NCBI GenBank assembly: GCA_011033025.1
Contig: WFMF01000538.1
Coordinates: forward strand, 48,861-112,860
Direction: 5' to 3'
DNA length: 64,000 nucleotides
Source of the DNA: Beroe forskalii
Taxonomy: Eukaryota; Ctenophora; Nuda; Beroida; Beroidae
Within the stretch, counting starts at the first letter, position 1. Each line of letters opens with the position of its first letter. A program made the position numbers and the translations under genes. Below are positions 9,711 to 63,029 of the stretch, in pieces. The notes under the pieces are model-generated. The model was not told the origin of the DNA and made no database searches. It saw nothing but the letters and a program-made list of their open reading frames with translations.

Positions 9711-11360
9711 GTAAAGGTACCGTTGTAATAATGTACCGTTGTTAATAAGGTACCGTTGTTAATAAGGTACCGTTGTTAACAAGGTACCGTTACCAAGGTA
9801 CCGTTGTTAACGAGGTACCGTTGTTAACGAGGTACCGTTGTTTACGAGGTACGTTTGCGCCAAAAGGACCTTGTTAAAAACCGGAAAAAATTTTTTTTTT
9901 AAAAGGGGGAATTTTTTAAAAGGGGGCCCCCTTTTTTTAAAAATTTTCCCGGGGGCCCCCCCTTTTTTAAAAAATTTTTTTTTTTTTTTTAAAAAAGGGG
10001 AACCTTTTTAAAATTAAAAGGTTTTAATGGGGGGGGGGGGGGGGAAAAGGAAAAAAATTTTTGGGGGGCCCCTTAAAAAAGGGCTTTTTTTAAAAACCCC
10101 CTTTTTAAAAGGGTTTTTTTTTTGGGGGGAAAAAAAAAAAAAGGGGAAAAAAAAAAAACCCCCCCTTTTTTTAAAAACCCGGCCTTTTTTTCCTTTTTTA
10201 GGGGGTTTTTTTTGGGGGGGAAAAAAATTTTGCCCAAAGGGGTTTTTTTTTAATTTTTTAAAAGGAAAAAAATTTTTTTGGCGTTTTTTAAATAATTTTT
10301 AAAAAAAAAAAAAAAAGGGGGGGGTTTTTTAAAACAACCTTTTAAAAAATTTTTTTTTTGGGGGGTTTTTTTTAAAAAAATTTTTTTAAAAATTTTTTTT
10401 TAAAAAAAACCTTTTTAAAAAAGGGGCCTTTTTTTTTAAAGGCCCTTTAAAAAAAAACCCCCTTTTTTTTTTTTTTTTTTTGGTTTTTTAAAAAAGTTTA
10501 ACAAGGTTTTTTCCCCTTTTAAAAAAAATTTTTAAAAAACCCCAAATTTTTGGGTTTTTGGGGTTTTAAAATGGGGGGGGGAAAATTTTTTTAAATTTTT
10601 TTCCGTTAAAAAATTTTTTAAAAAATTTTTGATTTTTTGGGGTTTTTTAAGGGGGGGTTTTTAATATTTTTTTTTAAAAAAGGTTTTTTTTTTTTTTGGC
10701 CCCTTTTAAAGATTTTTTTTAAAAATTTTTTTTTTTTTGGTTTTTAAAGGCCCAAAAAACCCCTTTTTTAAATTTTTTTAAAGGTTAAAAATTTTTTTTC
10801 CCCTTTTTTCCCCCCTTTTTTTTTTTTTTTTCCCCCCTTTTTTTTTTCCCCCGTAAAGTAATAGTACCGTTGTTAATAAAGGGTACACTGTTGTTAACTA
10901 GGGTACCGTTGTTAATAGGTACTGGTAATTTAAACACTAAGAGTACCGTTGATGACAGTACCGTTATTCTGGTACCATTTAACGAGGTACCGTCGTTAAC
11001 GAGGTACCGTTGTTAATAAGGAACCGACCTTTATAAGGTACCGACCTCAATAAGGTACTGTTGTTATTAAGGTGCCGTTTTCAATAAGGTGCCGTTGTTA
11101 ACAAGGTACCGTTGTTAATAAGGTACTGTTGTTAATGAGGTACCGTTGTTAATATGGTTCCTTAGTTAATAAGGTACCGTTGTTAATAGGTTCTGTTGTT
11201 AATAGGTACTGTTGTTAATAGGCACCCTTGTCAATAGGTACCCTTGTTATTTAGGTACCGTTGTTAATATGATATTTTTGTGAATATGGTACTGTTGTTA
11301 ACATGATACCGTTGTTGCCAAGGTTCCGCTGTTAATAAGGCACCGCTGTTTATAAGGTAC
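9711..11360 (+). repeat. 17-bp tandem array with GGTACC and GTTAAC palindromes
   Basis: The unit is close to GGTACCGTTGTTAATAA. Both GGTACC and GTTAAC inside it are palindromic. Units are clear at 9,715-9,860 and 10,855-11,360. The middle (9,866-10,860) is distorted into homopolymer runs. A cleaner inverted array of the same unit occupies 61,846-63,010. Confidence 0.85.
9866..10860. other. Homopolymer-inflated segment, probable consensus artefact
   Basis: Nearly every base sits in a run of three or more, with no normal sequence texture. Fragments of the flanking 17-bp unit can still be sensed. It lies wholly inside the tandem array, which is where long-read consensus tends to fail. A lysine/phenylalanine/glycine-rich open frame here should not be taken as a gene. 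Confidence 0.8.
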
Positions 11361-11379
11361 CGATGATATTCAGGTACCG

Positions 11380-11580
11380 TTTCCTTCCCTTCCTTCCCTT
11401 CCTTCCTTCCCTTCCTTCCCTTCCTTCCCTTCCTTCCCTTCCTGCCCTTCCCTTCCTTCCTTCCTTCCTTCCTTCCTTCCTTCCCTTCCTTCCCTTCCTT
11501 CCCTCCCTTCCCTCCCTTCCCTTCCTTCCCTTCCCTTCCTTCTCTTCCTTCCCTTCCTTTCCTTCCCTTCCTTCCCAATC
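11380..11580 (+). repeat. CCTTCC polypyrimidine tract
   Basis: About 200 bases of uninterrupted C and T built on CCTTC and CCTTCC words. Such mirror-symmetric tracts can form intramolecular triplexes. Open frames across it encode only KEGRKG or LPFLPSL repeats. Confidence 0.9.
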
Positions 11581-16855: not shown

Positions 16856-16995
16856 GTACCACCAGTTGCCGGACGGGAAGCTGTGTCCTAACGGGGCGTG
16901 TGTTGGGGGTGTTTGTGTGGTGGAACCCCAGACGCAGGTGAAGCTGTGGCAGGTGCTGACCGGCCTGACCCCCAGCCTCTTCTGGGAGTGGATGG
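16856..16995 (+). CDS. adam17: ADAM17-like exon: membrane-proximal stalk (copy A)
   Basis: The acceptor is TTTCCTATCAG and the donor GGATGG|GTGAGT. It encodes YHQLPDGKLCPNGACVGGVC, then a linker with TQVKLWQVLTGLTP and SLFWEWM. This corresponds to the ADAM17 stretch K-x-C-x-x-x-x-C-x-x-x-x-C followed by the juxtamembrane stalk helix. Exit phase 1 joins to the membrane exon (40,811) to give E-NNVVLVV. The last 43 bases plus the donor are the unit of the tandem array that follows. In copy B this exon (39,363-39,406) lacks 96 bases. Confidence 0.88.
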
Positions 16996-18470
16996 GTGAG
17001 TTACAGGGGGTGTGACAAGTCCTCACCGGCCTGACTCCCAGCCTCTTCTGGGAGTGGATGGGTGAGTTACAGGGGGTGTGGCAGGTGCTGACCGGCCTGA
17101 CCCCCAGCCTCTTCTGGGAGTGGATGGGTGAGTTACAGGGGTGTGGCAGGTGCTGACCGGCTGACCCCCAGCCTCTTCTGGGGAGTGGATGGGTGAGTTA
17201 CAGGGGTGTGGCAGGTGCTGACCAGCCTGACCCCAGCCTCTTCTGGGAGTGGATGGGTGAGTTACAGGGGTGTGGCAGGTGCTGACCGGCCTGACCCCCA
17301 GCCTCTTCTGGGAGGTGGATGGGTGAGTTACAGGGGGGTGGCAGGTGCTGATCGGCCTGACCCCAGCCTCTTCTGGGAGTGGATGGGTGAGTTTACAGGG
17401 GGTGTGGCAGGTCCTGACCGGCCTGACCCCCCACCTCTTTTAGGGAGTGGATGGGGTGTGGCAGGTGCCGACCCCAGCCTCTTCTGGGAGTGGATGGGTG
17501 AGTTAGGTGCTGACCGGCCTGACCCCCAGCCTCTTCTGGGAGTGGATGGGTGAGTTACAACTAACAGGGGTGCTGGCAGGGTGCTGACCCCAGCCTCTTC
17601 TGGGAGTGGATGGGTGAGTTACAGGGGGTGTGGCAGATGCTGACCGGCCTGACCCCCAGCCTCTTCTGGGAGTGGATGGGTGAGTTACAGGGGGTGAGGC
17701 AGGTGCTGACCGGCCTGACCCCCAGCCTCTTCTGGGAGTGGATGGGTGAGTTACAACTAACAGGGGGTGTGGCAGGTGCTGACCCCCAGCCTCTTCTGGG
17801 AGTGGATGGGTGAGTTACAGGGGGTGTGGCAGGTGCTGACCGGCCTGACTCAGCCTCTGGGAGTGGATGGGTGATTGCAGGGGTGTGCAGGTGCTGACCG
17901 GCCTGACCCCAGCCTCTTTTGGGAGTGGATGGGTGAGTTACAGGGGTGTGGCAGGTGGATGCCTGACCCCCAGCCTTACACAGGGGATGGGTGAGTTACA
18001 GCTGGTGAGGCAGGTGCTGACTGACCCCCAGCCTCTTCTGGGAGTGGGATGGGTGAGTTACAGGGGTGGCAGGTGCTGACTGGCCTGACCCCCAGCCTCT
18101 TCTGGGGAGTGGATGGGTGAGGACAGTTACAGGGGTGGGCCGGGTGCTGACTGGCCTGACCCCAGCCTCTTCTGCAAGGTGGATGGGTGGGGACACAGGG
18201 GGTGTGGTGCTGACCGGCTGACCCCCAGCCTCTTCTGAGGTGGATGGGTGAGTTACAACTAACAGGGGTGTGGGTGCTGACCCCAGCTCTTCTACAGGAA
18301 TTGATGGAACTGAGTAACAGGGGGTGTGGCAGGTGCTGACCAGCCTCTTCTGGGAGTGGATGGGTGAGTTACACAGGGGTGTGGCAGGTGCTGACCGGCC
18401 CCCAGCCTCTTCTGGGAGTGGGTGAGTTACAGGGGTGAGGCAGTGCTGACCGGCCTGACCCCAGCCTCTT
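16996..18470 (+). repeat. 66-bp splice-donor minisatellite after the stalk exon (array A)
   Basis: About 22 copies of a 66-bp unit. Each contains GTGAGTTACAGGGGGTGTGG, then CAGGTGCTGACCGGCCTGAC and CCCAGCCTCTTCTGGGAGTG, ending GATGG. The unit is the end of the preceding exon with its GTGAGT donor and 23 intron bases. That intron piece itself ends in GGCAG|GT, a weak acceptor. Sixty-six is a multiple of three and the frame is open, giving a 22-residue repeat. Units near 17,440-18,300 carry indels. Confidence 0.92.
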
Positions 18471-19955
18471 TTTTGGGGGGGGGGGGTTTTGGGGGGTGGC
18501 AGGTCCCGGGGCCTCCCCCCCGGGGGGGGGGGGGTTTTTTGGGGGGGGGGGCCCCCCCCCCCCCTTTTTTGGGGGGGGGTGAGTTACAGGGGGTGTGTGG
18601 GCAGGTGCTCCCCCCACCTCCCCGGGGGGGGGGGGGGTTTTTTGGGGGGGAAAGGGGGGTGGGGGGTCCCCCCCGGGGGGGGAAAGGGGGGGTAAAAAGG
18701 GGGGGTTTTCGGGGGGGGCCCCTGGGGGGGGGGAGGGGGGGGTTTGGGGGGGGGGGGGGGGGCCCCCCCCCTTTTTGGGGTGGGGGGGGGGGGGGGGGGG
18801 GGGGTTTTTTTTGGGGGGGGGGGTTTTTGGGGGGGGTTGGGGGGGTTTTGGGGGGGGTTTGGGGGAAAAAAGGGGGGGGTTTAAACGGGGGAAAAACCCG
18901 GGGGGATTTGGGGGGGGTTTGGGGGGGGGGGGGGGGGCCCCCTTTTGGGGGGGGTGGGGTTGGGGGAATTGGGGGGGGGGTTTGTTGGGGGGGGGGGGGG
19001 GGGGGGGGGGGGGTAACCCCCCCCCCTTTTTAAGGGGGGATGAAAAAGGGGGGGGCCCGGGGGGCCCCGGGGGGGGGGGGAAAGGGGGGGGGGTTTGGGG
19101 GGAAAAAGGGGGGGGGGGGGGGGGGGGGGGGGTTTTTGGGGGGATTTGGGGGGGGAAGGGGGGGGGGTTAGGGGGTGGGGGGGGGGTTTGGGAAGGGGGG
19201 GTTTGGGGGGGGTTGGGGGGGGGGTTTCCCCCGGGGTGGGGGGGGGGGGGGGGTTTTGGGGGGGGGGTTTTGGGGGGGTTTGGGGGGGGGTTGGGGGGGG
19301 GGGGGGCCCCGGGGGGGAAAAGGGGGGTTAAGGGGGGGTGGGGGGGGGGGAAAAAAAATTTTTCCGGGGGGGGGGGAAAGGGGGGGGGGGTTCGGGGGGG
19401 GGGTTTGGGGGGGGGGGGGCGGGGGGGGGAAAGGGGGGGGGGGGTTAAGGGGGTTTTGGGGGGTTTTGGGGGGGGGGGGGTTTTGGGGGGGGGGTTTACG
19501 GGGGGGGAAAAAAAAGGGGGGGGGGGGGGGTTAAGGGGTGGTTCGGGGGGGGGGGGGGCCCCCTTTTTGGGGGGATTTGGGGGGGGTTTGGGGGGGGTTC
19601 GGGGGGCCCTAAACCCGGGGGTTTTAAGGGGGGGTTTGGGGGGGGGGGGGGGTTTTTTGGGGGGTTTTGGGAAGGGGGGGGGGGGAAAGGGGGCGGGGGG
19701 TTTTGGGGTTTGGGAAGGGGGGGGAAATTTGGGGGGTTGGGGGGGGGGGGAGGGGGGTGAAAAGGGGGGGGGGGGCCCCCGGGGTTTTAAAGGGGGGGGT
19801 TGGGGGGGGGGGCCCGGGGGGCCCCCGGGGGGAAGGGGGGGGGGGGGGGGGGGTTTGGGGGTGGGGGCCCGGGGGGGTTGGGGGTTCGGGGGGGGGGGAA
19901 AGGGGGGGGGGGGTTTTTGGGGGGGGGGGGGGTGGGGGGCCCCCCGGGGGGATGT
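18471..19955. other. G-run segment, probable consensus artefact and possible contig join
   Basis: About 1.5 kb of G runs with short T, A and C runs. It begins inside the 66-bp array (fragments such as GAGTTACAGGGGGTGTG survive near 18,580) and ends abruptly at the protease prodomain exon. The glycine-rich and proline-rich frames here are not credible genes. The jump from the stalk array to the prodomain is the likeliest point of an assembly join. Confidence 0.8.
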
Positions 19956-21499: not shown

Positions 21500-21604
21500 C
21501 TCACGAGATCGGGCACAACTGGGGCAGCTCCCATGACCCTGACAATACGGATACCTGTGCTCCTCCAGGCAACCGGTTCATAATGTACCCATCTGCTGTG
21601 GATG
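21500..21604 (+). CDS. adam17: ADAM17-like exon: zinc-binding active site
   Basis: The acceptor is TCTCATCCCAG and the donor GGATG|GTGAGT. It encodes AHEIGHNWGSSHDPDNTD, then CAPPGNRFIMYPSAVD. HEIGHNWGSSHD is the HExxHxxGxxHD zinc motif with the catalytic glutamate, and MYPSA contains the Met-turn, so the catalytic core is intact here. The exon's last 28 bases plus the donor and intron start are amplified in the following array. Confidence 0.93.
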
Positions 21605-22680
21605 GTGAGTTACCATGACAACCATAACAATCTGTAGATGGTGAGTTACCATGACAAATTGGTTCATAATGTAAACCCATCTGCTGTGGAACTCCACTTA
21701 TGACAACCAGTTTATTATGTAACAATCTGCTGTAGATGATGAGTTACCATGACAACCGGTTCATAATGTACCCATCTGCTGTAGATGGTGAGTTACCATG
21801 ACAAGCGGTTTATAATTTACCCATCTGATGTGGATGGTGAGTTACCATGACAACCGGTTCATAATGTACCCATCTGCTGTGGATGGTGAGTTACCATGAC
21901 AACCGGTTTATAATGTACCCATCTGCTGTAGATGGTGAGTTACCATGACAACCGGTTTATAATGTACCCATCTGCTGTAGATGGTGAGTTACCATGACAA
22001 CCGGTTCATAATGTACCCATCTGCTGTAGATGGTAGTTACCATGACAACCGGTTCATAATGTACCCATCTGCTGTGGATGGTGAGTTACCAAGACAACCG
22101 GTTTATTATGTAACAATCTGCTGTAGATGGTAAGTTACCATGACAACCGGTTCATAATGTACCCACTACCCATCTGCTGTGGATGGTGAGTTACCATAAA
22201 AAACCAGTTTATTATGTACCCATCTGCTGTGGATGGTGAGTTACCAAGACAACCGGTTTATAATGTACTCATCTGCTGAAGATGGCGAGTTATCATGACA
22301 ACCGGTTTATAATGTACCCATCTGCTGTAGATGGTGAGTTACCATAACAACCGGTTTATTATGTAACAATCTGCTGTAGATGGTGAGTTACCATGACAAC
22401 CGGTTCATAATGTACCCACTACCCATCTGCTGTGGATGGTGATTTACCATGACAACCGGTTTTTAATGTACCCATCTGCTGTGGATGGTGAGTTACCATG
22501 ACAACCGGTTCATAATGTACCCATCTGCTGTGGATGGTGAGTTACCATGACAACCGGTTTATAATGTACCAATCTGTAGTAGATGGTGAGTTACCATGAC
22601 AACCGGTTTATAATGTACCAATCTGCTGTAGATGGTGAGTAACCATGACAACTGGTTCATAATGTGCCTATTTAAGCATC
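21605..22680 (+). repeat. 49-bp splice-donor minisatellite after the active-site exon
   Basis: About 22 copies of a 49-bp unit: GTGAGTTACCATGACAACCG followed by GTTCATAATGTACCCATCTG and CTGTGGATG. The second half is the end of the upstream exon (encoding FIMYPSAVD). Nearly every unit keeps GTGAGT. A few read GTAAGT, GCGAGT or GTGATT. Readthrough meets a TGA in the first unit, so only the first donor gives the full protein. Confidence 0.93.
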
Positions 22681-24152: not shown

Positions 24153-24902
24153 TTAAGGCATTAGTGCCACACCGGATATGACTCCCAGAAAAAACAGAAA
24201 AACAAGAAATAAATACATGGCATAATCCGGGCATACACCCGGATTATTTGTCGGAGAAATGGGTGAATTATGATCATGATTATCATGATAATCATTCCCA
24301 TACTTCTGTAACAAATAAAGATACAAAGCGTTCTCGCTAGGGGCTGCCTCCTTGTCAGTGCACGATGCTATCGGTTCAGCAGACCCAATACCGCCTGCTA
24401 AGCCACGCAGAACCATCTCGTCACGTGACAATTGCTCCCCTTGGCAGATTGCCAGACTCTTTCCTCCAAAGTTGTCGTGTTCGTACACCCTCCATGCGCT
24501 GCCGGTTGCTTTGATAGTGGATGTTAGGCCTTTGAAGGGAAGTCTGCTGATACTCGGAGCTGCAAAGTTGATCGTTATAGACTTCCATCCGTGGTTAAAA
24601 TGTTCCCACATTTCCAAACCACATGCCTTGTCCTCCCTACGTGCAGATGATATCACTTCCAATAAATGGTGTTTTGCCAACATTTTGTAGTCGTAGGTTA
24701 GTCCTTCACAGATGGCCATGCTTGGTCCCGTGTAGTTTGCATGCTGAAAGACCCTCCAGTTGCCCACTGTGCTGTGAACAGTGCCTATTCCATGACGTTG
24801 TCCTAAGCCTTGTTCGAAGTTGTTTGCAGCGTTATTCAGTTCCGTCATGTCTGCAGAAATTTCACGAAACACCACAAGTCCCCCTGAAATGGGAAGGAGC
24901 AT
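24153..24902 (-). CDS. Beta/gamma-crystallin-like protein with C-terminal hydrophobic segment, copy 2
   Basis: An intact 249-residue frame differing from copy 1 at about ten positions (for example WRVFQHANYTG for WRVYQHANYTG, WEHFNHG for WEHSNHG, IGSAEP for IRSAEP). Greek-key motifs and the hydrophobic C-terminus are conserved, as is the internal 3' splice-site-like sequence just after the ATG. Preservation of both frames suggests function, or very recent divergence. Confidence 0.75.
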   Translation of the reverse strand: MLLPISGGLVVFREISADMTELNNAANNFEQGLGQRHGIGTVHSTVGNWRVFQHANYTGPSMAICEGLTYDYKMLAKHHLLEVISSARREDKACGLEMWEHFNHGWKSITINFAAPSISRLPFKGLTSTIKATGSAWRVYEHDNFGGKSLAICQGEQLSRDEMVLRGLAGGIGSAEPIASCTDKEAAPSENALYLYLLQKYGNDYHDNHDHNSPISPTNNPGVCPDYAMYLFLVFLFFLGVISGVALMP

Positions 24903-25914
24903 GTTACTATAATCTTATAATGAAGTGTTTGGAATGAACGCTCATTGTTATGAGACTTGGAAGTTGGAGTCTTAGGTTTACCATGACTTGTCTCTTGTGC
25001 TCTGGCCTGGTTTATCATAATGTCAATGAACTGACTCTTGGAGTCTAGGGCCCGCCCTCCGGGGCTTGAGTCTGGCACCTGACTGAAACGTTTGCAACGC
25101 ATGTAGCAGGGTAGCACAAACAGGAGCAACTTCGATGGAAAAAAGTTTAAGAAAAGTCATCAAGAAATAATGGAGAAAATTGCATGCGAAACAGGGATGC
25201 GTAACAATTGGCCATGTCCATATTTTGTTTTACGCATCTTCTGATAGAAGACAACGTCTTGTGTGATTTGAAAGTGAGTTATTAAGTTGAATCACTTAGC
25301 CCCTTTGGGCCACAATTACTTACCCTCTACAAGACTGAAAGTTAGAGCTGCTAGAAACCAACCATGAACCATCTTGCTATTGATCCTAATCAAAATATAA
25401 ACGAGGAATGAAATAACCAAGTTACATCCCTCAGACGGCAGTCCGTGAAAAATGGTTTCCGGGGAAAATGGAGGAATGCAATTCCACAATTAAGAATGAA
25501 TAGAGTACCGCGACTTCGCAGTTATTTAGAAATAGATTCTCACTATATTACGCACCGATTTAACTATGACAAACTAGTAAACTGGAGGAGGATAGCGAGT
25601 AGTGGGTACAATCACTAGTGGGTATACTCAGTAGTTGTGGTTTTTTAATCACGTTCAATGGAGGATTTCATGTGGTTTGAATGTCATGAGGCAGTCGTTG
25701 ATCAGTTCAGATGTGGCTTATAGGCAGCCTATAATCAATACACATGTATAATTATTAACTTCACATGACGTGTCAACTGTCATAGTGGCCAGTCGGCATG
25801 CCGCTCTATTGCTCTCCAGTACCCATATTAAGCAGCCTTGAAGTGTGAGGTTTTCTGTTAATAATGGCTTAATGATCTGTGTGTTGTGTTTAATTTAGAT
25901 TTTTACATCCAAAC

Positions 25915-28065
25915 AATAAAAAATATGTTCCAAGGCTTTAAAATGTATGCTTTTCATGTGCACTTTCTCAATTTGAGTAATTTATTTCGCTTCAAATTTT
26001 AGATTTAATTTCTAAGAATTTCCTAATACTATGAGTAACACAAAATTCATAGACACGCGCGGGGTCGGGCCCATTTTGGGATAGCTCCGAGGCGCAGCCC
26101 GAGATCTATCTGTTTTGACCCGCAGCCCGTGGGGCGAGTTCTAAACAAATATGGGCCCGATCAGGCAAGTCTCTATGTACTCAGAACCGCATGAAAATCA
26201 GAATATCCACAGAGCATTATAATGCGAGTAACTGCATTTTGAAATTTTGGAGCCCGACCATCACGTGAATAAGTGGGCATAAGGTCTCTGATATCCCCCG
26301 CCTATTCAGAAACTCATAAGCACTAATTCTTAGTTATATACCTATACCTTAGGGATCCGTTTCAAATATGACAAATGAATTGATCAGTACCAATTATGAT
26401 CGAGAAATCCCCCTCGATTTAAAACGCAAACAAAGTCCAACCTCGGCCTCGGCTTCGGTCAAAAATCGACCTTTTTTCAAACTCGGCCCCGGCAGTTTTT
26501 TTTGAGTAGAAAATGTTCGAAAATAGGACAGTCTAAATACTTTAAAATTGATTATGTTTCAACTTTGGAAAAATTTATGAAAATATTGAGGTAAGTTTCA
26601 GAAAATGGTGCTGAAAAATGGAGCTTTTGAGTTGGTTTTCTGAAAATTTTGCTAAAATACCGAAATTTGTATAAAACTTGGCAAAAAGATTCTTTTTAAA
26701 TAGTGATTACGAAAATCAATCACCATATAATTGTAGCTCCCCGTAATCAAACGTGAATCATTTGTTAAGAACCTGAACTCTGGTGATTACGTAATTTTCA
26801 CTATTTTAGTACTATAATGATAGTATGAAATTACAGATTGTTTTTAACGGAGTGACAATTTGAAATTATGATCATTATTCGAGATTATGGCGTACGCCCG
26901 AAATTTTGAGCGATTTTCAATTGTTAAACGACCAAGTACTGGCCTCGACTTTCAAATGTCCAAATCGGACCCCTTCATCCTTCCGTCAAAACTCGGCAAA
27001 ATTTTCTTCATTTTGCGATTTTTTGTGAGCATAAATTAGGTAATTGCCAGAATTTCATGTGTTATGTTGAATTTTTGGGTGTTGAATTTTAAAGTTGAAT
27101 TTTGGGTTTGAATTTGGGTATTGAATTTTGCGTAACAAACTGAAATTTTCTGGATTAATATTTAACTTATGTTAATAAATTTATCAAATTTCTAGATGTT
27201 AAATTGGCGTATTCTTTCAAATCTTCTTACAGAAAATCACGGCAAAATATAATTTCACCCTTAGGAATGTTATATGAACTATGGCTGATGTTTGTAGGCT
27301 CAGTTGAAGAACCTTCCCAATCGTTTGACAAGAATCGTTTGCTGATATAATATTTATGTACAGATTAATGATAGTGTTGATATTAAACTTTGTCATTCAC
27401 GGAAGTTCGGCAATTTTAATCTCGCCTGCGTACTGACATCGAGAATATGGCGTACGCCTAATCGTGACGTTAACCGATTAGGGTTAATTTTCTACCCCTC
27501 TGTCCTTACTTTTAAATGTCCACATTATCACTATGGACCAATGACCATAAACCATCGATCATCCTTGCCTTAACGTACCTGTATCTAAAAATAGCTGATT
27601 TTTGTGAGTGCATAAATTATGACCTGTAGATATTATGATGTGTAGAATTTATGATGCGTACCTAATAATTATGATCATTTTGTTAAAATTATCATGTTAT
27701 TAGTACGCATCATAATCTTTACCACTAAGGTGCTCACACATGTTGCCATTCACAAAGGAATCATTCATGATCTTTGTGACCAATAATCGGTATATGAAGT
27801 ATGAAATTCAGAGCTTATTACATTTGCCTAAGCTTGATACTGCACTTCACCCTTACTGCATTTCAAAGTATTTTTTTATGTTTGTAGTATACCCATACAC
27901 TGAATACATAAATTCCCAATCGCTCTGACAAGAATGAAATGCTGATATACTGAATTAAACTCTCATCAATATGAGGCAGAAATCTTTCGTTTTACACATC
28001 ATCAGTGCCTATAATGAGAATAAGCTAGGTTAGGAAAAAAGCAAAGCAAATGTATAGAAAACCAC
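25915..28065. other. Non-coding stretch, AT-rich
   Basis: No exon recognised. Contains the foldback element at 26,048-26,178, two copies of ATGGCGTACGCC (about 26,886 and 27,448) and a weak inverted repeat near 27,620-27,720 (TGATGCGTACCTAATAAT and its partner). The disintegrin exons expected here by comparison with copy A are absent. Confidence 0.5.
26048..26178. mobile_element. Foldback MITE-like element
   Basis: Imperfect inverted ends CATAGACACGCG ... CTCTATG, with GGTCGGGCCCAT on the left and ATGGGCCCGATC on the right. About 130 bp, GC-rich, non-coding, set in AT-rich DNA. Confidence 0.6.
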
Positions 28066-34084: not shown

Positions 34085-35123
34085 CCAATCCCCTGTAACT
34101 CACCCATCCACTCCCAGAAGAGGCTGGGGTCAGGCCGGTGAGGACCTGCCACACCCCCTGTAACTCACCCATCCACTCCCAGAAGAGGCTGGGGGTCAGG
34201 CCGGTCAGCACCTGCCACACCCCCTGTAACTCACCCATCCACTCCCAGAAGAGGCTGGGGGTCAGGCCGGTCAGCACCTGCCACACCCCTGTAACTCACC
34301 CATCCACTCCCAGAAGAGGCTGGGGTCAGCACCTGCCACACCCCTGTAACTCACCCATCCACTCCCAGAAGAGGCTGGGAGTCAGGCCGGTGAGGACCTG
34401 CCACACCCCCTGTAACTCACCCATCCACTCCCAGAAGAGGCTGGGGGTCAGGCCGGTCAGCACCTGCCACACCCCCTGTAACTCATCCATCCACTCCCAG
34501 AAGAGGCTGGGGTCAGGCCGGTTGCTTCCTGCCACACCCCTGTAACTCACCATCCTCCCAGAAGAGGCTGGGGGTCAGGCCAGTCAGCACCTGCCACACC
34601 CCCTGTAACTCACCCATCCACTCCCAGAAGAGGCTGGGGTCAGGCCAGTCAGCACCTGCCACACCCTGTAACTCACCCATCCACTCCCAGAAGAGGCTGG
34701 GGTCAGGCCGGTCAGCACCTGCCACACCCCTGTAACTCACCCATCCACTCCCAGAAGAGGCTGGGGTCAGGCCGAGCACCTGCCACACCCCTGTAACTCA
34801 CCCATCCACTCCCAGAAGAGGCTGGGTCAGGCCAGTCAGCACTGCCACACCCCCTGTAACTCACCCATCCACTCCCAGAAGAGGCTGGGGTCAGGCCGGT
34901 CGCTGCCACACCCCTGTAACTCACCCATCCACTCCCAGAAGAGGCTGGGGGTCAGGCCGGTCAGCACCTGCCACACCCCTGTAACTCACCCATCCACTCC
35001 CAGAAGAGGCTGGGGTCAGGCCGGTCAGCACCTGCCACACCCCAACTCACCCATCCACTCCCAGAAGAGGCTGGGGTCAGGCCAGTCAGCACCTGCCACA
35101 CCCCTGTAACTCACCCATCCACT
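34085..35123 (-). repeat. 66-bp splice-donor minisatellite, inverted copy (array C)
   Basis: About 16 units of the same 66-bp repeat as arrays A and B, on the opposite strand (ACTCACCCATCCACTCCCAG is the donor side). It breaks off at 35,123 directly into the degraded 17-bp array. Confidence 0.92.
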
Positions 35124-36239
35124 AAAGGGTTAATAAAAGGTTGGTATTTGAATGGAAATTTGAAAAACTTTCCAAAAAGGTTGTTAAAGGATTTTTAACA
35201 GGGAGTTGTTTCCCTTCCTTTTTAACGAGGTACCCCAAAGGGGCTTTAAAAGGCCCCTTTTTAAAAAGGGTCCCTTTTTCCGCCCGCGAAAGCGTAAAGA
35301 CCGTTAAAAATCCGGGTTTTGTTTTTTGAAAGGATTTCCCTAAAGTACGTAAAAACGTACCGTTTTTAAAAACCTTTTAAAAAGGCCCAACGGGTTTTTA
35401 AAAAAGGGTTAAAAACCCCCTTTAAAAAACCTCAACCGGGGTTTTAAGGGTCCGTGTTCAGGGACCTTTTAAAGGTATTTTAAAAAAAGTTAAAAGGTTT
35501 TTTAAAAAGGTAGTTTTTAAACAGGTCCGTTGTTAAAAACCCGTTTTAAAAGGACCTTTAAAGTCCCCTTTTTTTAAAGGTCCCTTTTAAAATTAAAAAG
35601 GTCTGTTTTTTAATTTTTGGTTTGGGGCCGTTTAATAGGCGGTTTAAAAGGGGCCCGAAACGGTACCGTCGTTTTTCCTTTTCTCCGTTCCCTTTTTCCC
35701 CCCCCCCTTTTTTCTTTTTTGGCCCTTTTTTCCCCCTTTTTTTTTCCTTGAAATTTTCCTTTTTTTTTCCCCTTTTTCTTTTCCTTTTAAATATTTCCTT
35801 TTTAAAATTAGGGGAAAATTGGCCCCTTTTAACTTTTTTGGAAATATTTTTCCAACTCTAGGTTTTGTAATTCAAATTATTTTTGCTTAATAAAATTTTA
35901 AAGTTTGTTAAGGGACCGTTGTTAAAAAACCCCTTTAAAAGTATTTTTAAATTTGGTGGGTTTTTAAATTAAATTTTTTGGAATAGGACATGAACAAACG
36001 TTTTGCCGGTACGAAAAAAGGGAAAACCCGGTTTTTGGTCCATGTTTCAGGACGTTTCCTTTTTTCCTTCCCTTTTTTTTTTTCCCCCCTTCCCCCTTTT
36101 TCCCCTTCTTCCCTTTTTTTTTTTTCCCCCTCCCTCTTGCCCGTTTCCCCCCTTCCTTCCCCCTTAAATTTTTATTTAAAAATTCCCCCTTTTTTTTATC
36201 CTATTTAAACCTTTTTTTTTCCCTAAATTGAAAAATAAA
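35124..36239. other. Homopolymer-inflated remnant of the 17-bp array
   Basis: Run-rich sequence in which pieces of the 17-bp unit remain (GGTCCGTTGTTAA near 35,523, GGACCGTTGTTAA near 35,913), followed by a C/T-rich part (36,055-36,140) that mirrors the CCTTCC tract of copy A. Likely the copy-B equivalent of 9.7-11.6 kb with a poor consensus. Open frames here are unreliable. Confidence 0.7.
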
Positions 36240-37204
36240 CCCCACAATTTGGCAGTAATATTATGTGCATATTATAAACAGTATAATGTACTTCTCCAAT
36301 TATTGGAACGCGCGAACTAATGGCTCATCTAAGCAATGCTGACAGCACCATTCCAAACTTGTTTGGGGATGAAATCATCAAAATATCAGCTTTGTTCACA
36401 TAGTGCTATTAATCTCCAGTGTCAAATAAACGGAGGGGTATCGTTACAAATTTTTGACTTTTCTCCAGCGTAAGACGCTTATTGGGCAACCCCCCGTTTA
36501 ATTTTTTTTTTGGATCTTTTTAAAATAACTTTTTCTAAAAGCTGGTTTAAACACAGAATTGACCAGAAAATAAAATACCTGTATGAAATAAAGTGTCAAA
36601 GGTAACCAGGCAGCCTGGCAGCAAATCCTTTTCTCGCAGATTATTACATATCGCTTTGTTTTGATTTGATAATATTTTGACTCGAGTGTCATCAACCCAT
36701 CACCACCCGCTAATTCGAGACCCCACCGTTTGCATCGGTTTTGCTAATTCACTACCCAAAGAAGTTTATTTTGACCCCCCCCCCTCCTTGGATTTGGCAC
36801 TGGAGAGTAGATCACAAATACCAGTATTATATCATCGGATCATCCTATGTGTTCAGTACATTAGTGCAACTTCACTGCAGTTTCACTGCACTTAATGCGC
36901 GCTGATATTCAACCTCGCCTACTGGCATGCCTTAACATGTTAAAATCAACGAGCTAATAAGTAATAAAACAGTCGCAGTAAGTATATCAATATTATACAA
37001 CTTAAGAAAGTAAGAATTGTTGGCATAAGCTTTTAGAGTTCTAAAATAACTGTTGGCATACCAAACGTACGTATAAATAGTAAGTCCCAAAGCATGATCA
37101 AACGAAGAAAGCAGCAATCGCCTCCCTACGTCCATACCAATATCATCAGTCAAAACTACCCATAAGCAGATAGGTAAATAGAAATGGATGCTTAGACTCA
37201 AAAA

Positions 37205-39362: not shown

Positions 39363-39406
39363 GTACCACCAGTTGCCGGACGGAAGCCTCTTCTGGGAGT
39401 GGATGG
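39363..39406 (+). CDS. adam17: ADAM17-like stalk exon, shortened by an in-frame 96-nt deletion (copy B)
   Basis: Encodes YHQLPDGSLFWEWM in 44 nt, against 140 nt in copy A. The missing 32 codons include the cysteine cluster LCPNGACVGGVC and the VKLWQVLTGLTP stretch. Frame, acceptor and donor (GGATGG|GTGAGT) are kept. Loss of an odd number of cysteines would disturb disulphide pairing. It could be a real allele or a collapse of repeat-like sequence during assembly. Confidence 0.75.
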
Positions 39407-40745
39407 GTGAGTTACAGGGGGTGGCAGGTGCTGACCGGCCTGACCCCAGCCTCTTCTGGGAGTGGATGGGTGAGTTACAGGGGTGTGGCAGGTGCTGACC
39501 GGCCTGACCCCCAGCCTCTTCTGGGAGTGGATGGGTGAGTTACAGGGGGTGTGGCAGGTGCTGACCGGCCTGACCCCAGCCTCTTCTGGGAGTGGATGGG
39601 TGAGTTACAGGGGGTGTGGCAGGTGCTGACCGGCCTGACCCCCAGCCTCTTCTGGGAGTGGATGGGTGAGTTACAGGGGGTGTGGCCTCTTCTGGGAGTG
39701 GATGGGTGAGTTACAGGGGGTGTGGCAGGTGCTGACCGGCCTGACCCCAGCCTCTTCTGGGAGTGGATGGGTGAGTTACAGGGGGTGTGGCAGGTGGCCT
39801 GACCCCAGACCGGGGGTGTGGCACCCCCTGACCCCCCTCTTCTGGGAGTGGATGGGTGAGTTACAGGAGAGTTACAGGGGGTGTGGCAGGTGCTGACCGG
39901 CCTGACCCCCAGCCTCTTCTGGGAGTGGATGGGTGAGTTACAGGGGGTGTGGCAGGTGCTGACCCCCAGCCTCTTCTGGGAGTGGATGGGTGAGTTACAG
40001 GGGGTGTGGCAGGTGCTGACCGGCCTGACCCCCAGCCTCTTCTGGGAGTGGATGGGTGAGTTACAGGGGTGTGGCAGGTGCTGACCCCCAGCCTCTTCTG
40101 GGAGTGGATGGGTGAGTTACAGGGGTGGGCAGGTGCTGACCGGCCTGACCCCCAGCCTCTTCTGGGAGTGGATGGGTGAGTTACAGGGGGTGTGGCAGGT
40201 GCTGACCGGCCTGACCCCCAGCCTCTTCTGGGAGTGGATGGGTGAGTTACAGGGGGTGTGGCAGGTGCTGACCGGCCTGACCCCCAGCCTCTTCTGGGAG
40301 TGGATGGGTGAGTTACAGGGGGTGTGGCAGGTGCTGACCCCTGACCCCCAGCCTCTTCTGGGAGTGGATGGGTGAGTTACAGGGGGTGTGGCAGGTGCTG
40401 ACCGGCCTGACCCCCAGCCTCTTCTGGGAGTGGATGGGTGAGTTACAGGGGGTGTGGCAGGTGCTGACCGGCCTGACCCCAGCCTCTTCTGGGAGTGGAT
40501 GGGTGAGTTACAGGGGGTGTGGCAGGTGCTGACCCCCAGCCTCTTCTGGGAGTGGATGGGTGAGTTACAGGGGGTGTGGCAGGTGCTGACCCCCAGCCTC
40601 TTCTGGGAGTGGATGGGTGAGTTACAGGGGGTGTGGCAGGTGCTGACCGGCCTGACCCCCAGCCTCTTCTGGGAGTGGATGGGTGAGTTACAGGGGGTGT
40701 GGCAGGTGTTGACCCCAGCCTCTTCTGGGAGTGGATGGGTGAATT
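39407..40745 (+). repeat. 66-bp splice-donor minisatellite (array B)
   Basis: About 21 units, cleaner than array A, each with GGATGG|GTGAGT. Long stretches read without stop as a 22-residue repeat (LTGLTPSLFWEWMGELQGVW). Some units have exact internal loss of ACCGGCCTG-type segments. The array ends about 70 bp before the membrane exon. Confidence 0.93.
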
Positions 40746-40810
40746 AAAACTAATTAGATAAACCCCTTTATCCTTCATCGTACTAACTATTTGACATCGG
40801 TGTTTTTCAG

Positions 40811-40932
40811 AAAATAACGTTGTTTTGGTGGTTATCGTGATAACATCGCTTTTCTGGGTTCCCCTGGCCGTCTTTGTCAACTGGCTTGACCAAGGACACG
40901 ACGAGATCGAACACTACACCACAACTTTACAG
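40811..40932 (+). CDS. adam17: ADAM17-like transmembrane exon
   Basis: The acceptor is TCGGTGTTTTTCAG and the donor TTTACAG|GTAGTA. It enters in phase 2 so that G from the stalk exon plus AA gives E, then NNVVLVVIVITSLFWVPLAV and FVNWLDQGHDEIEHYTTTLQ. A single helix of about 23 hydrophobic residues is followed by charged cytosol-facing sequence. Position and phase match the ADAM17 juxtamembrane order (stalk, helix, tail). Confidence 0.9.
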
Positions 40933-41142
40933 GTAGTATGGGGATACTTGTATTATTTGTTTCAGTTCGCTATTAGAATCAGAATCTAATATTTATGCAA
41001 ACTCTCGGGCCTCGTATCTTATGCCATTGATCATTGGACATCATCATTCGATGCCAGGTCATTTGCCTAGATTCAGTTAAACAGTTACCTCTTCAATGGA
41101 ATTGGATAGCTCGTTTCTCTGGAATTACACTCCCTCTTTCAG

Positions 41143-41271
41143 CGGAACCGGGACCTCATCAAGACACAGATGTCCACTGTCAGCTCCCGGAGCTTTGAGA
41201 TGAAGCCCATTCTAAGGCCCGGTGGGACAGACGAGGAGTGCGTCTTCTCCCTGACGGGCGAGAGGTTCTGA
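41143..41271 (+). CDS. adam17: ADAM17-like last exon: short cytoplasmic tail and stop
   Basis: The acceptor is CCCTCTTTCAG. Encodes RNRDLIKTQMSTVSSRSFEM, then KPILRPGGTDEECVFSLTG, ending ERF and TGA. The cytosolic tail totals about 60 residues, far shorter than the vertebrate ADAM17 tail of well over 100. The last 39 bases (13 codons including the stop) are repeated exactly at 41,272-41,310. Phase 0 entry fits 40,932. Confidence 0.87.
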   Translation, partial: RNRDLIKTQMSTVSSRSFEMKPILRPGGTDEECVFSLTGERF

Positions 41272-47715: not shown

Positions 47716-50055
47716 ATGGAAGATTCTTCCCAAGAAGATGAACAAATACTGCCAGAGGAAGATGAAAATACTAAGGTATCAATCAAAATTTCTCATTTGT
47801 GGTTGTGTAATTTAATGATATCAATACTACTGGAAAATGGTGTATATATGGTGTTAAATGAGCACCATTATTAGGTACCTTATTGGCCTTTATTTAACCG
47901 GCCCTTAAGGACAAAAACGACTTTGAGATTTTTGTCCAAAGGGCCGGTTAAAAAAAGGCCGGTTAAAGAGGGGCCGGTCAAATTAAAGGCCAGTTAATTT
48001 AGGTCAAATGAAACTTTTATGAGTCGGCTAATATAGTGTAAAATTCACTGGAACGTCATTACATAACACGATCATGACCTAAATAATAATATTAGACCGG
48101 GATTGGGGTCTTTTGATGCAATGTATCTAGTATAAAGGGGTTTTATTGGCCATTTTAGAGCAAAAAATCCTTGATCTGGCAACCACCAGAAAAATTTTTG
48201 TCCAAGGGGCCGGTTAAAACGGTTCAAAAATGATTTGATTTTTGTCCATGGGGCCGGTTAAAAAAATGGCCGGTTAAAAAAAAGGCCGGCTAAATAAAGG
48301 CCAATAAGGTATATTAAAATGATATTTTTCAGGTAATCAAAGAGTGCCTAGAAGCATTCCACAGCAAAGATAGCATTTGTGAAGCTAGTATATTTAAAAC
48401 TGTTAAGAAGTACTTCAATGCTGGGGGTACACCAGAAGAGGTAAGTTTCCATGATTTCAGTGACATAAAAACAATACAATAGACCAATGACCATGTTTAT
48501 AAATTACTGTGGCTATAGCTTCTATTGTAATGATATTTTGATGCAGTAATATGGTACACAGTCTAGTTGCTGCTATGTGTTCCAACCACCAAAATATTAA
48601 TAACTATTGAGAACAATGACGAAAGAACATTCAGGTTGTGAATGTTCTTGCTGAAAGTTTCCAAGGGATTGGTAATCTAGCCAGACAGTTGGTTTTGTGG
48701 CTAGAGTTTTGTGGAGAAAACCAGAATGAGACTGAGAAAATGGTTGAAGACCATGTAAAGGAACTGCTTGAGGAGCACTTTGATCCCAGAAAAGCAGACA
48801 CCATCTTCTCTGACGAAGGTAAAAGGTTTCTGTTCAAACTGTGCTAGAGTAGATTACAGATCTTTAGAAAGCAAGTATGTAAATTCCAGGGAGACTGTTA
48901 AGAGTTTTCTACTTAGAATTTTGTTGACCCAAGATTGGTATTTTGTGCCAGTAAACCTGAGGTCTGCCCCACTAGGTGATCTGCCAGGATGGTTAGGGGA
49001 GATGATTAGCTATCCAACTTGGAGGAACCTGTTCTACTCCCTTGCTGACAAGCACCCAGACTGCATCATGCTCAACTTCACCATCAAGCTCATCAGTGAT
49101 GCTGGTTTCACTGATGAGATCAGCAGGTACAATCACATTTAGATTATCAGTGATGGAATTAGCAGGTTACATTGGGAATTCATGTTTGTAATGTTACAAG
49201 GTGCAATTCTGTTAGGAATCTCTTCGATTTAAAATTCACCATGAGAATTTGAATGATGATGTTTTGGTAAACCCCCACTTTACAGCGTCAGTACGGCATC
49301 TCAACAGATAGACGTGTTCTCCAGAATCCTTAAGACCAGCATTGCCAGCATACTGACTTTCCGGGGAACCAGTCTTCAGGATATTATCTCAGATTTAGTT
49401 AAAATTGGTACGTGAAGATTCGAGGGAATTTGATGATTGATATTCATACCTATCTCTATGAATCTACCATTTTCCTATCCTTCCTAAGTTATATACCTAT
49501 TTTCTGAGACTTATGTTTTAGTATGAAAAAATCCGACACATTTGAAACCTCCACGCCTTAGGTGTGTAGTAGCAAGCACACCTACTTCTACACCATCGCT
49601 CTCCTACACCAAGCTGCTAAGGATAAGGGCACGGGTTACAAGCTGAGGTATTTGAGCCAGGTCAGTAGTATAAGCCTGTATTATCTAGTGTCAAGGTGTT
49701 TTAAATCTGATGATACTCTTTTTACATCATCAAATGACTTGGGCATCATCATAAGACATAATATGACATGATTGATACTGTATTCATATTTTGTTCTTGA
49801 ATGTTATTAACAATTGCTCAGTTGGAGTCTATTTGCAACAAATTACACATAAAAACTAGGGGTATATTTGCTTTTTTATAAAATCTGTAGCTATTCAGAA
49901 TCTTGATACAATTCTCAGGACACCCTATAGACTTCCCTAAATCACAAGATTATCCCTGCAGGAGTTGGAGCGAAGGGCTCGCCTGATGGGTCGGGACACC
50001 TGCAACATCACCCTCGGTATGAACGGTGCTGCCGCCTACCCCGTCATCTACCAGT
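47716..50055 (+). CDS. nelfcd: NELF-C/D (TH1-like) subunit of negative elongation factor, 5' part
   Basis: Seven exons with GT-AG borders: 47,716-47,775; 48,333-48,440; 48,635-48,818; 48,976-49,126; 49,286-49,407; 49,562-49,660; 49,962-50,055. NELF-C/D belongs to the nuclear complex that holds RNA polymerase II in promoter-proximal pausing. Diagnostic blocks: [105 protein letters not shown] and [18 protein letters not shown], all collinear with the vertebrate protein's N-terminal third or more. One fault: the junction 49,407/49,562 is out of frame by one base, and one A too many in the AAAA run at 49,401-49,404 would explain it. An acceptor (TTCACAG) lies 8 bases before the ATG, so an upstream non-coding exon is likely. 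Exons for the remaining C-terminal part are not found in the window. Confidence 0.9.
47876..48311. mobile_element. Foldback MITE in NELF-C/D intron (second copy only)
   Basis: Inverted ends TACCTTATTGGCCTTTATTT and complement (CCAATAAGGTA), internal repeats of GGCCGGTTAAA in both orientations, 436 bp. The first gene copy has the plain site ATTATTAGGCATATT (45,071). The target duplication appears to be TA. Confidence 0.82.
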
Positions 50056-51195
50056 GTAAGTGAGGGATTGTTCGTGGTTTAGGGAGGTAGTCATCTACTA
50101 GTGTACGTGAGGATTGTTCGTGGTTTAGGGAGGTAGTCATCTAACAGTGTACGTGTAACGTGAGGGAATGTTCGTGGTTTAGGGAGGTAGTCATCTACCA
50201 GTGTAAGTGGGGGAATGTTCGTGGTTTAGGGAGGTATTCATCTACCAGTGTAAGTGAGGGAATGTTCGTGGTTAAGGGAGGTATTCATCTACCAGTGTAA
50301 GTGAAGGATTGTTCGTGGTTTAGGGAGGTAGTGATCTACCAGTGTACGTGAGGGAATGTTCGTGGTTTAGGGAGGTAGTCATCTACCAGTGTAAGTGAGG
50401 GAATGTTCGTGGTTTAGGGAGGTAGTCATCTACCAATGTACGTGAGGGATTGTTCGTGGTTTAGGGAGGTAGTCATCTACCAGGGTACGTGAGGGAATGT
50501 ACGTGGTTTAGGGAGGTAGTGATCTACCAGTGTAAGTGAGGGAATGTTCGTGGTTTAGGGAGGTAGTCATCTACCAGTGTACGTGAGGGAATGTTCGTGG
50601 TTTAGGGAGGTAGTCATCTACTAGTGTAAGTGAGGGAATGTTCGTGGTTTAGGGAGGTAGTCATCTACCAATGTACGTGAGGGATTGTTCGTGGTTTAGG
50701 GAGGTAGTCATCTACCAGGGTACGTGAGGGATTGTTCGTGGTTTAGGAAGGTAGTCATCTACCAGTGTAAGTGAGGTAATGTTCGTGGTTTAGGGAGGTA
50801 GTCATCTACCAATGTACGTGAGGTAATGTTCGTGGTTTAGGGAGGTAGTCATCTACCAATGTACGTGAGGGATTGTTCGTGGTTTAGGGAGGTAGTCATC
50901 TACCAGGGTACGTGAGGGAATGTACGTGGTTTAGGGAGGTAGTCATCTACCAGTGTACGTGGGGGAATGTACGTGGTTTAGGGAGGTAGTCATCTACTAG
51001 TGTACGTGAGGGAATGTTCGTGGTTTAGGGAGGTAGTGATCTACCAGTGTACGTGAGGGATTGTTCGTGGTTTAGGGAGGTAGTGATCTACTAGTGTAAG
51101 TGAGGGATTGTTCGTGGTTTAGGGAGGTAGTGATCTACTAGTGTAAGTGAGGGAATGTTCGTGGTTTAGGGAGGTAGTCATCTACCAGTGTACGT
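50042..51195 (+). repeat. 47-bp splice-donor minisatellite at the NELF-C/D exon end
   Basis: About 24 copies of a 47-bp unit: GTAAGTGAGGGATTGTTCGT, GGTTTAGGGAGGTAGTCATC, TACCAGT. The TCATCTACCAGT part repeats the exon's 3' end (encoding VIYQ) and is followed in each unit by GTAAGT or the weaker GTACGT. Readthrough meets TGA at once. Confidence 0.93.
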
Positions 51196-51370
51196 GGGGG
51201 AGTCAGAGTATGTATTTTAGGGAGTTAGTGTATGTGTTTAGGGAGTTAGTGTTTGTGTTTAGGGAGTTAGTGTATGTGTTTAGGAGTTAGTGTATGTGTT
51301 TAGGGAGTTAGTGTTTGTGTTTAGGGAGTTAGTGTATGTGTTTAGGGAGTTAGTCAGTATACGATTTATA
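51196..51370 (+). repeat. 20-bp minisatellite
   Basis: Units of about 20 bp, AGGGAGTTAGTGTATGTGTT, sharing the AGGGAG core with the preceding 47-bp array, from which it may derive. Confidence 0.8.
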
Positions 51371-51568: not shown

Positions 51569-53765
51569 TTACTTTATAGAATACTTTTCTCGTAAGAAAG
51601 CGCTAAGCACTTGAGCGCCCGACGTTGGAAAGTAAGGCTGCGTGACGGCATGTGACAGCAAAATGCACATTTTACCGGGATTACACGCCCCAATACCGCA
51701 CACCTCGCATACCTCACACCGACACACCTCACACACTTCAGCGCTTCTGCGCACCTCAGCGCTTCTGCGCACCTCAGCACTGCTGCGCACCTCAGCACTG
51801 CTGCGCACATCAGCACTGCTGCGCACCTCAGCACTACTGCGCACCTCAGCACTACTGCGCACCTCAGCACTACTGCTCACCTCAGCACTGCTGCGCACCT
51901 CAGCACTGGTGCGCACCTCAGCACTACTGCGCACCTCAGCACTGCTGCGCACCTCAGCACTGCTGTGCACCTCAGCACTGCTGCGCACCTCAGCACTGCC
52001 GCACACCGCACTGCCGGGTTGCATGCGGAGTTTAGTCTCACTGTGGAAACCCTCAGTTCGCTTCAGATCCCTGTCTCTTCCCCCGCAGAACGCACAGCTC
52101 CCGCCCTCGCACTCCGCGCACCGCACGCCGCGGCAGTGCTCGCACTTCATGAGCCGCATCACCACCAGGACCTCGTTTATCACGTACCCCGAGTCCATGG
52201 TCCGGAATGCGTGACCCATCACGCGGTCGATGACGTCACGGAACTCGTGGAGTCCGGCCTGCGTGACCACGTGGCTCAGCCCACCGAGGAACAGCGCTAC
52301 TCTCGTGGGTCCGCTCAGCGTACGGTTATCCCTCTTCTTGACTCCTTGCTGATTACCCCACTTGTGGTAACCCAACTTCTTGCTGAGTCCTCCATCCTCC
52401 GGGGGAAGGGTTTCGTTCTGATGATCACCCCATCGCTCACATTCGCTGTATGTTCGTTTACGTTTATTGAAAGTTCCGGGTTCCTGTTTCACATCCGCTA
52501 TCACCGTGACCCTTTCGTCAAACGTAACGTGCTTCTTAGTCCTGATGAAGTATTCCGTTATCGAGAATCTTGAAATCGTAAAACCTTGAAAGCCCCTTGA
52601 ATCTAACCTGCACAGTGCCCTCATACCCGCTAAAATTGTAATTTCAAATAAATCCTTATTTAGTTATTTCAAAAAGTCACTAGGTACTGTATGTTGAAAG
52701 TTACCTGCCGTAATCGGTTGCTGTGGAAATGAATTCGGCGTGAATGGCACTGCAAATTCCTGCTACTAGTCCCCAGAAGATCAGTATACCCAGAACGCCT
52801 GGATGATTGGTATAATTGTTAGGTCTACTGAAAGATCCAATAAATAAGAGAAAAGGATTAAAGGGTCGCTCATACTTCATATTATACGCAGTCGCCAGTC
52901 AGCTGTGGTGTTGTCGGAACTTTCCTAGTTCCTACAGCTCTACTAAAACAATGGAAGCCATTCAGTACATAATTGGTCCATTTCCGCATTCAACTTACAA
53001 CGCTGAGTAATCTGCGTGTCCGAAGATGTTCTCTCCACTGTTGTTGAACTGGTTCAACAGTAAAACTGTGACATTTTTCAAAACAATGTAATGTTTCAAT
53101 GTATCAAGTAAATCCTTGAACGGTCTATACATCCCAGGTCTATTAGTATTTTAATAGAGCACAGTGCCAAAAAGTCCACCAGGACTTCGGGGGCGCGTTT
53201 GCTCGATGTACCAAAAAAATACAGTATACCTGTATCACAGTTTGCCCCTGCTATATGTTCCGTAGTTGTGTTCAGCTCTATAACACCACTCCTTCTCTCC
53301 CAACTAGAAGTAGCACTGTGACTTCTCTCCCAACTAGCACCGTAACTCCTCTTCCAAGTTGTTGTAGGATGTGTGTCTGTCTGTTTGTAGGGGGTCACTG
53401 AGTCGAAACACCCGCCTACTCCATCCCACCATTTCACTTTATCGGATCCTGAAATAATCTGCTATTAGTGGATAACTACATGATGACGTCATCTTCTGCA
53501 GCGCGCGGCAGTGCTTGGTGACGTCACATGGCCAGCAGATTACCGATTACTAAATCCGATGTTCACCATTACGGGAAGTTTGGTTACAGTAAATGGAATA
53601 AAGATAGTCGAGCACTCCTTTAGTCCAGGCAAATAAGCAAATAGACAGGAGGCTGTATTCCACTAAGGTAAGATCAGAGAATCTTGAACTTCTCTCCCGC
53701 CAGTCTATGATCCGGGACCGAAGATAACCGAGAAATTTATCTCCATAGTCCTCAGATAGTGACAT
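51569..53765 (-). CDS. Complete five-exon gene, unknown family, probable two-pass membrane protein
   Basis: On -, exons 53,765-53,567, 53,448-53,230, 53,065-52,999, 52,827-52,705 and 52,607-51,569 all have GT-AG borders. Their phases (1, 1, 2, 2) agree throughout, giving exactly 549 codons including the stop. The N-terminus [18 protein letters not shown] is followed by a moderately hydrophobic segment (about 38-60). A region of about 105 residues carries four N-glycosylation sequons (NQT, NTT, NNS, NYT). A clear helix [20 protein letters not shown] (about 170-192) follows. The last exon encodes a basic linker and a C-x2-C-x4-C-x2-C-x4-C-x2-C cluster ([20 protein letters not shown]), likely metal-binding, and ends in a hexapeptide repeat. 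All sequons between the two helices argue for a luminal or extracellular loop and cytosolic ends. I do not recognise the family. It is convergent with NELF-C/D. Confidence 0.82.
51736..52010 (-). repeat. 18-bp coding repeat in the unknown gene
   Basis: About 15 copies of an 18-bp unit (on -, GAGGTGCGCAGCAGTGCT) encode SAEVRS hexapeptides in the C-terminal region. Unit length is a multiple of three and the frame is kept. Copy-number variation would change the tail length without a frameshift. Confidence 0.88.
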
Positions 53766-63010: not shown

Positions 63011-63029
63011 TATTACTTTATTAACGACA

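Follow-up and report, generated by a model that had tools for sequence, protein, structure and literature searches.

Probable mirage-type minisatellites at exon/intron boundaries of several genes in the ctenophore Beroe forskalii

We analyzed a 64,000-nucleotide stretch of the genome of Beroe forskalii (the window) in which the ends of several exons, together with their splice donors, are repeated in tandem. The window is the right-hand part of a 112,860-base contig (C623) from an assembly of 216 Mb in 1,134 contigs. A preliminary description of the window had reported four such arrays. Reading also the 48,860 bases to the left on C623 and fifteen 10-kb stretches (150 kb) of eleven other contigs, we found by eye 12 arrays that span an exon/intron junction, six at donors and six at acceptors, one of the latter (36 bp, in the NELF-C/D gene) being a probable case. 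These arrays are likely to be minisatellites of the mirage type, in which a duplication spanning an exon/intron boundary multiplied into the intron and was tolerated there. The arrays were called with Tandem Repeats Finder, and whether they span a junction was judged with the hypothesis known. Positions without a prefix are those of the window, the prefix C623 marks positions on the contig, and L017, L020, L025, and L029 are stretches from other contigs of the same assembly. The four starting junctions are listed here.

16,856-16,995, plus strand: ADAM17-like exon, membrane-proximal region (...LFWEWM), an open frame with ag-exon-gt ends; donor GTGAGT at 16,996
16,945-18,470, plus strand: 66-bp donor-spanning array, about 24 units, running from the exon interior into the intron and then into low-complexity sequence
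21,500-21,604, plus strand: ADAM17-like exon with a HEIGHNWG zinc site, an open frame with splice signals; donor GTGAGT
21,570-22,665, plus strand: 49-bp donor-spanning array, about 21 units
49,962-50,055, plus strand: NELF-C/D exon (called exon 6) ending ...AAAYPVIYQ; donor GTAAGT, phase 1
50,043-51,201, plus strand: 47-bp donor-spanning array, 24.5 units by Tandem Repeats Finder
57,787-58,207, minus strand: Denticleless copy, 3' exon, in an open frame extending to 58,207; donor GTGAGT at 57,786
56,776-57,832, minus strand: 68-bp donor-spanning array of about 15 units; the lower coordinate is approximate

Tandem Repeats Finder placed the arrays of 66, 49, 47, and 68 bp where the preliminary description had put them, and the exon ends it gave (16,995, 21,604, and 50,055 on the plus strand and 57,787 on the minus strand) are exact when read in the sequence; the three plus-strand exons all have ag-exon-gt ends. 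The program reported the 66-bp array in pieces, started the 49-bp array at 21,632 (the first irregular units, from 21,570, were read by eye), and gave the 68-bp array as 56,899-57,832, with further units down to about 56,776. Each unit does consist of an exon end, its donor, and the first intron bases, but the exonic share of 12 to 43 bases given earlier is slightly low: it runs from 13 to 52, with 52 exon plus 14 intron bases in the 66-bp unit, 35 plus 14 in the 49-bp unit, 13 plus 34 in the 47-bp unit, and 46 plus 22 in the 68-bp unit. The donor GT was retained in most later units of these four arrays (20/24, 16/19, 24/24, and 13/14). In all arrays read, the copies sit on the intron side of the exon, and reading through the first donor soon meets stop codons at the first three of the four starting junctions.

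The arrays lie in three genes, as had been proposed. The exon at 21,500-21,604 alone matched Pfam Reprolysin_5 (E 6.3e-10), and the gene at 21.5 kb looks like ADAM17. The ADAM17_MPD match of the exon at 16,856-16,995 was weak (E 0.088), and the ADAM17-like name of this exon draws also on the reprolysin exon of the neighboring copy. The second gene is, on its protein matches, certainly NELF-C/D (PDB match, E 1.7e-62; TH1 family, E 1.9e-73). The Denticleless (DTL/CDT2) name comes from a sister copy at C623:30.3-38.5 kb, where the joined translation of the WD40 exons matched PDB 9c5t (E 1.9e-61); the open frame at 57,787-58,207 is conserved in that copy at C623:37,102-37,641.

Partial copies of the ADAM17-like gene in the window carry two more copies of the 66-bp array.

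34,090-35,123, minus strand: 66-bp array in inverted orientation, 16 units; copies of the last two ADAM exons lie downstream of it
39,385-40,746, plus strand: 66-bp array, third copy, with about 21 units
40,811-41,271, plus strand: two following ADAM exons, one transmembrane-like (40,811-40,932) and the last (41,143-41,271)

Since the two ADAM exons follow at 40,811-41,271, the 66-bp array lies in an intron. The 49-bp array differs in copy number between sister copies, with 20.8 units in the window and 9.3 in the copy to the left of the window.

The Denticleless gene provides two further donor arrays and a boundary seen with and without its array.

C623:30,471-30,880: 55-bp donor-spanning array, 7.5 copies, at a Denticleless exon
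C623, left of the window: 70-bp donor-spanning array at a Denticleless WD40 exon

C623 has two copies of the start of Denticleless. In the copy at 4.05-4.7 kb, a single exon and donor lead directly into the intron, and in the copy at 30.3-31.4 kb the 7.5-copy array stands between this same exon and the matching intron sequence. The next exon does not differ between the copies but the introns do, which supports these exons being coding. The 55-bp array has CACGTGG in the exon-proximal unit and ACTTGG in the inner units. The pair shows that the Denticleless array was either gained or lost at a boundary that is ordinary in other respects. When the six donor units compared were searched for common words, the longest was 10 bases, the donor stretch GGTGAGTTAC. 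With no longer word in common, they arose separately, which bears out the earlier statement that the units are unrelated.

The NELF-C/D gene probably carries arrays at both ends of one intron.

54,309-54,799, plus strand: 36-bp array of tatctcatttcag (polypyrimidine-CAG) plus CGCTGACCTCCATGCTGAC, which agrees with the first bases of NELF-C/D exon 7
51,572-52,663, minus strand: open frame, a candidate nested gene in the NELF intron, with an in-frame 18-bp repeat at 51,734-52,007

At the donor end, GTACGT replaces GTAAGT in 15 of the 24 later units of the 47-bp array. The bases of the 36-bp array extend the exon ending at 50,055 in phase (YPVIYQ-SLTSML; the relative P0028 has YPTLYS-AITSMLSR), and this reading is in frame with QALGAML of the NELF-C/D PDB chain. 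The match suggests that the 36-bp array is probably acceptor spanning and lies at the far end of the same intron as the 47-bp array. Five short protein motifs did not locate the body of exon 7 on C623 (there was one chance match elsewhere on the contig), and the acceptor status of the array is thus probable and not proven. If correct, a single intron would start with a donor array and finish with an acceptor array. The open frame on the opposite strand sits between the two arrays, and in the part of PMC8527503 available to us, intron-nested genes are reported as numerous in Hormiphora, another ctenophore.

Outside the starting four, two of the eight arrays were at donors and six at acceptors, so that the proposed preference for donors is not supported (six of each in the full set). 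The five acceptor arrays besides the NELF case are as follows.

C623:10,407-10,933: acceptor-spanning array, 51 bp
C623:14,650-15,142: acceptor-spanning array, 205 bp
C623:19,289-19,685: acceptor-spanning array, 32 bp
L020:1,494-2,408: acceptor-spanning array, about 74 bp
L025:9,027-9,915: acceptor-spanning array, 25 bp

The exons assigned to these five acceptors are predicted from open frames and splice signals, and a Pfam search of the five gave no match in any of them. A ZIP-transporter name for the gene at C623:14.6-19.8 kb was dropped (no Pfam match, and weak, unrelated PDB matches).

Based on these results, we propose that each array would have begun with a local tandem duplication, probably by end joining, that fell by chance across an exon/intron boundary. 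Unequal exchange or replication slippage would then have spread further copies into the intron. As long as the splice site next to the exon body stayed in use, presumably the first donor in donor arrays and the last acceptor in acceptor arrays, the array would be tolerated as effectively neutral sequence. Only 2 of the 11 tabulated units are multiples of 3 bp (the tabulation omits the 205-bp array and has the 36-bp array in a 34-base form). The position of the copies on the intron side, the 9 of 11 units that are not multiples of three, and the early stops past the first donor are in line with tolerance. The proposal also draws on the anatomy of the arrays, the Denticleless pair, the unequal copy numbers of sister arrays, the ordinary conservation of the donor columns (see below), and the like form of the amphioxus cases.

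Several observations weigh against chance duplication followed by harmless spread. In the third ADAM copy, 96 bp are missing in frame from the exon at 39,363-39,406 at its border with the array, and the loss of these coding bases suggests that arrays may not always be harmless. The Denticleless pair could also record the loss of an array. By eye, 10 of 31 arrays on C623 span a junction against about 2 expected (P = 4e-5 at about 150 junctions), and with the starting four removed, the count was 6 of 27 against 1.7 (P = 0.0085). Finally, the junction calls themselves were not made blind.

The excess on C623 raises the alternative that tandem duplication in this genome favors exon/intron junctions, for example at nucleosome edges or through breaks coupled to transcription. 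We used a set of 59 arrays (period of at least 18, at least 2.5 units, score of at least 100, and entropy of at least 1.6), from which 12 duplicates were taken out by hand, leaving 47 independent arrays (31 on C623 and 16 elsewhere). An ab initio detector, which looks for exons that straddle the edge of an array, scored 10 of 31 arrays on C623, where random placement would give 3.0 (p = 5e-4 at a score threshold of 20; the six thresholds gave p from 7e-5 to 0.004). Six of the ten cases called by eye on C623 lay outside those picked in the preliminary description, and the excess is not accompanied by a higher density of predicted exons (0.42 per kb on C623 versus 0.49 in the other stretches). 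In the 150 kb of other contigs, however, there were 2 of 16 against 0.9 by eye (P = 0.22) and 2 of 16 against 1.8 with the detector, neither of them significant. The two methods had 6 of their 10 C623 arrays in common and 0 of their 2 elsewhere, and this poor overlap indicates that the detector is noisy. The figure of about 150 junctions was estimated from the 47 internal exons predicted in excess of a reversed-sequence decoy; at 300 assumed junctions, P becomes 0.0076 for 10 of 31 and 0.14 for 6 of 27. Across the genome, pairs of AGGTRAGT 41 to 71 bases apart numbered 1,091 + 901, below a backward control of 2,733 + 2,733 that was itself puzzlingly high and equal on both strands. The donor score of the unit exceeded that of shuffled units at p < 0.05 in 5 of the 59 arrays, which gives no clear signal. 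C623 is also unusually rich in arrays, which make up 15.7% of the contig versus 4.4% on average in the other fifteen stretches. The dense cluster described earlier stands for C623; the excess is not significant in the rest of the sample, and the genome-wide donor-pair count gave it no support. An excess of junction arrays exists on C623, genome-wide targeting is unproven, and we regard preferred duplication at junctions as a rather unlikely explanation of the arrays.

We consider it very improbable that the arrays are kept by selection, whether as spare donors or for effects on splicing or transcription. The retention of GT in most later units would fit such a role (20/24, 21/21, 13/15, 16/19, 24/24, 13/14, 6/6, and 7/7 in eight arrays). 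However, when the nine donor columns were ranked for conservation among all circular windows of the unit, they stood at 14/66, 23/66, 21/66, 25/49, 43/47, and 17/68 (six arrays, the 66-bp array counting three times through its copies; the 55- and 70-bp arrays were left out), so that GT is no better preserved than the remainder of the unit. Selection for donor redundancy, one of the causes suggested earlier, is not seen in these columns. Acceptor arrays also equal donor arrays in number, and the sister Denticleless exon does without an array. R-loops had been suggested as another cause. An origin through R-loops predicts G-rich coding strands. The GC skew of the coding-strand unit varied in sign among the six donor arrays (0.21, 0.04, 0.55, -0.69, 0.27, and 0.00) and was negative in 5 of 5 tabulated acceptor units, which gives this origin no support.

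It is just as improbable that collapsed or scrambled haplotypes created false arrays: C623 does contain many partial copies, direct and inverted and mostly 88-95% identical, as well as stretches of meaningless homopolymer sequence, and the NELF gene is untraceable past the 36-bp array, but the units of an array are not identical (mean column identity 0.88-0.955 across six arrays), two other contigs (L020 and L025) have arrays like these, and although the copies could be haplotypes, every array has its own mix of unit variants.

Junction-spanning minisatellites have precedents in amphioxus. One is the mirage minisatellite of amphioxus Adh3, reportedly described by Canestro et al. in 2002. The parts of two papers that we could consult (PMC3087553 and PMC3902484) bear out the comparison with amphioxus made in the preliminary description: there, mirages occur at 5' and 3' boundaries with AG/GT in many units, differ in length between haplotypes, leave regular splicing undisturbed, and were proposed as a route to intron gain. 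The genes named are the globins BflGb6 and BflGb9 (PMC3087553) and troponin C and PGBD5 (PMC3902484). The ctenophore arrays likewise have boundary-spanning units with a splice signal in many of them and occur at both 5' and 3' boundaries. They are also unstable in length, with 9.3 versus 20.8 units in one pair and 7.5 versus none in the other; the copy-number differences are between haplotypes in amphioxus and between sister copies, which may be paralogues or haplotypes, here. The ctenophore arrays differ in having about 2.5 to 35 units each, compared with 6 and 3 in the BflGb6 haplotypes of PMC3087553; in addition, a single gene can have them at several junctions, and a single intron probably has them at both ends. 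As in the AG/GT proto-splice-site model of intron gain by Rogers, known to us as cited in PMC3087553, a tandem duplication carries splice signals, but in the ctenophore an existing intron is extended by copies and no new intron is shown. Ordinary intronic variable-number tandem repeats, such as the 38-bp repeat in TERT intron 6, are also intronic minisatellites of variable length, whereas the ctenophore unit includes exon and splice-site sequence.

The INTS9 frame on C623 has 80% identity to Mnemiopsis leidyi over its full length, and the best named non-ctenophore matches have 36%. On this evidence the host genome is that of a ctenophore and not of a cephalochordate, and mirage arrays are therefore not an amphioxus-specific trait. 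A literature search limited to open-licence papers turned up none that stood out on ctenophore minisatellites of this kind. As far as the available parts of the sources go, junction-spanning minisatellites are known from amphioxus, and there may be earlier cases elsewhere; what is new is a dense example in a distant phylum, the kind itself being known. The occurrence in a ctenophore implies that mirages are either very old or recurrent in heterozygous, repeat-rich genomes. With the Denticleless pair and the ten cases on one contig, the published idea that mirages lead to intron gain can be tested directly. Such arrays may also mislead gene prediction and assembly, since a plausible but false splice site is present in many of their units. 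More speculatively, and doubtful at present, exon/intron boundaries could be a main source of new genic minisatellites in ctenophores, duplicated repeatedly at both intron ends, and much intronic tandem-repeat DNA could be fossil exon edge. Such a source would provide a running supply of spare splice sites for the shift or birth of introns. A link to ctenophore chromatin-loop anchors was considered and dropped: the anchor motif is GC rich, and the word "tandem" does not occur in the part of PMC12221973 that we had.

Several other arrays were not counted as junction spanning by eye (C623:24,927, 30,254, 31,515/4,810, and 32,842; L029:3,359). The first of these, a 29-bp array at C623:24,927-25,127, begins at a GTAAGT where a long open frame (25,121-26,086 on the minus strand, MACPF-like by eye) comes to its end, and is a possible donor array. 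A 39-bp array at 55,237-56,665 has TTCAG-AAAG-GTACC in many units, and reading its edges in six frames gave no clear tie to an exon. The in-frame repeats with units that are multiples of three, 18 bp at 51,734-52,007, 57 bp at C623:34,483-34,682, and 42 bp at L017:2,783-2,897, are likely protein repeats rather than junction arrays.

The partial gene copies on C623 may be interleaved haplotypes, misassembly, or a real complex duplication. Stuttering homopolymers that resemble an unpolished or failed long-read consensus adjoin 66-bp arrays at 18,470-19,950 and 35,130-36,240, and repeat reports suggest a probably similar stretch at about 9,900-10,850. A 17-bp satellite, AAGGTACCGTTGTTAAC and variants, is present in both orientations at 9,714-9,852, 10,985-11,381, and 61,848-63,015 and at C623:35,660-36,353. 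Beside the shorter Denticleless copy, C623:5,147-7,608 on the minus strand has open frames that, by eye, we take to resemble a retroelement with a GIY-YIG-like part. Two open-frame copies at 465-1,265 and 24,156-24,914 on the minus strand appear by eye to be of the beta/gamma-crystallin type. A COX1 match at G000:C1134:40-1344 contains four in-frame TGA codons, which fits a mitochondrial code that reads TGA as an amino acid.
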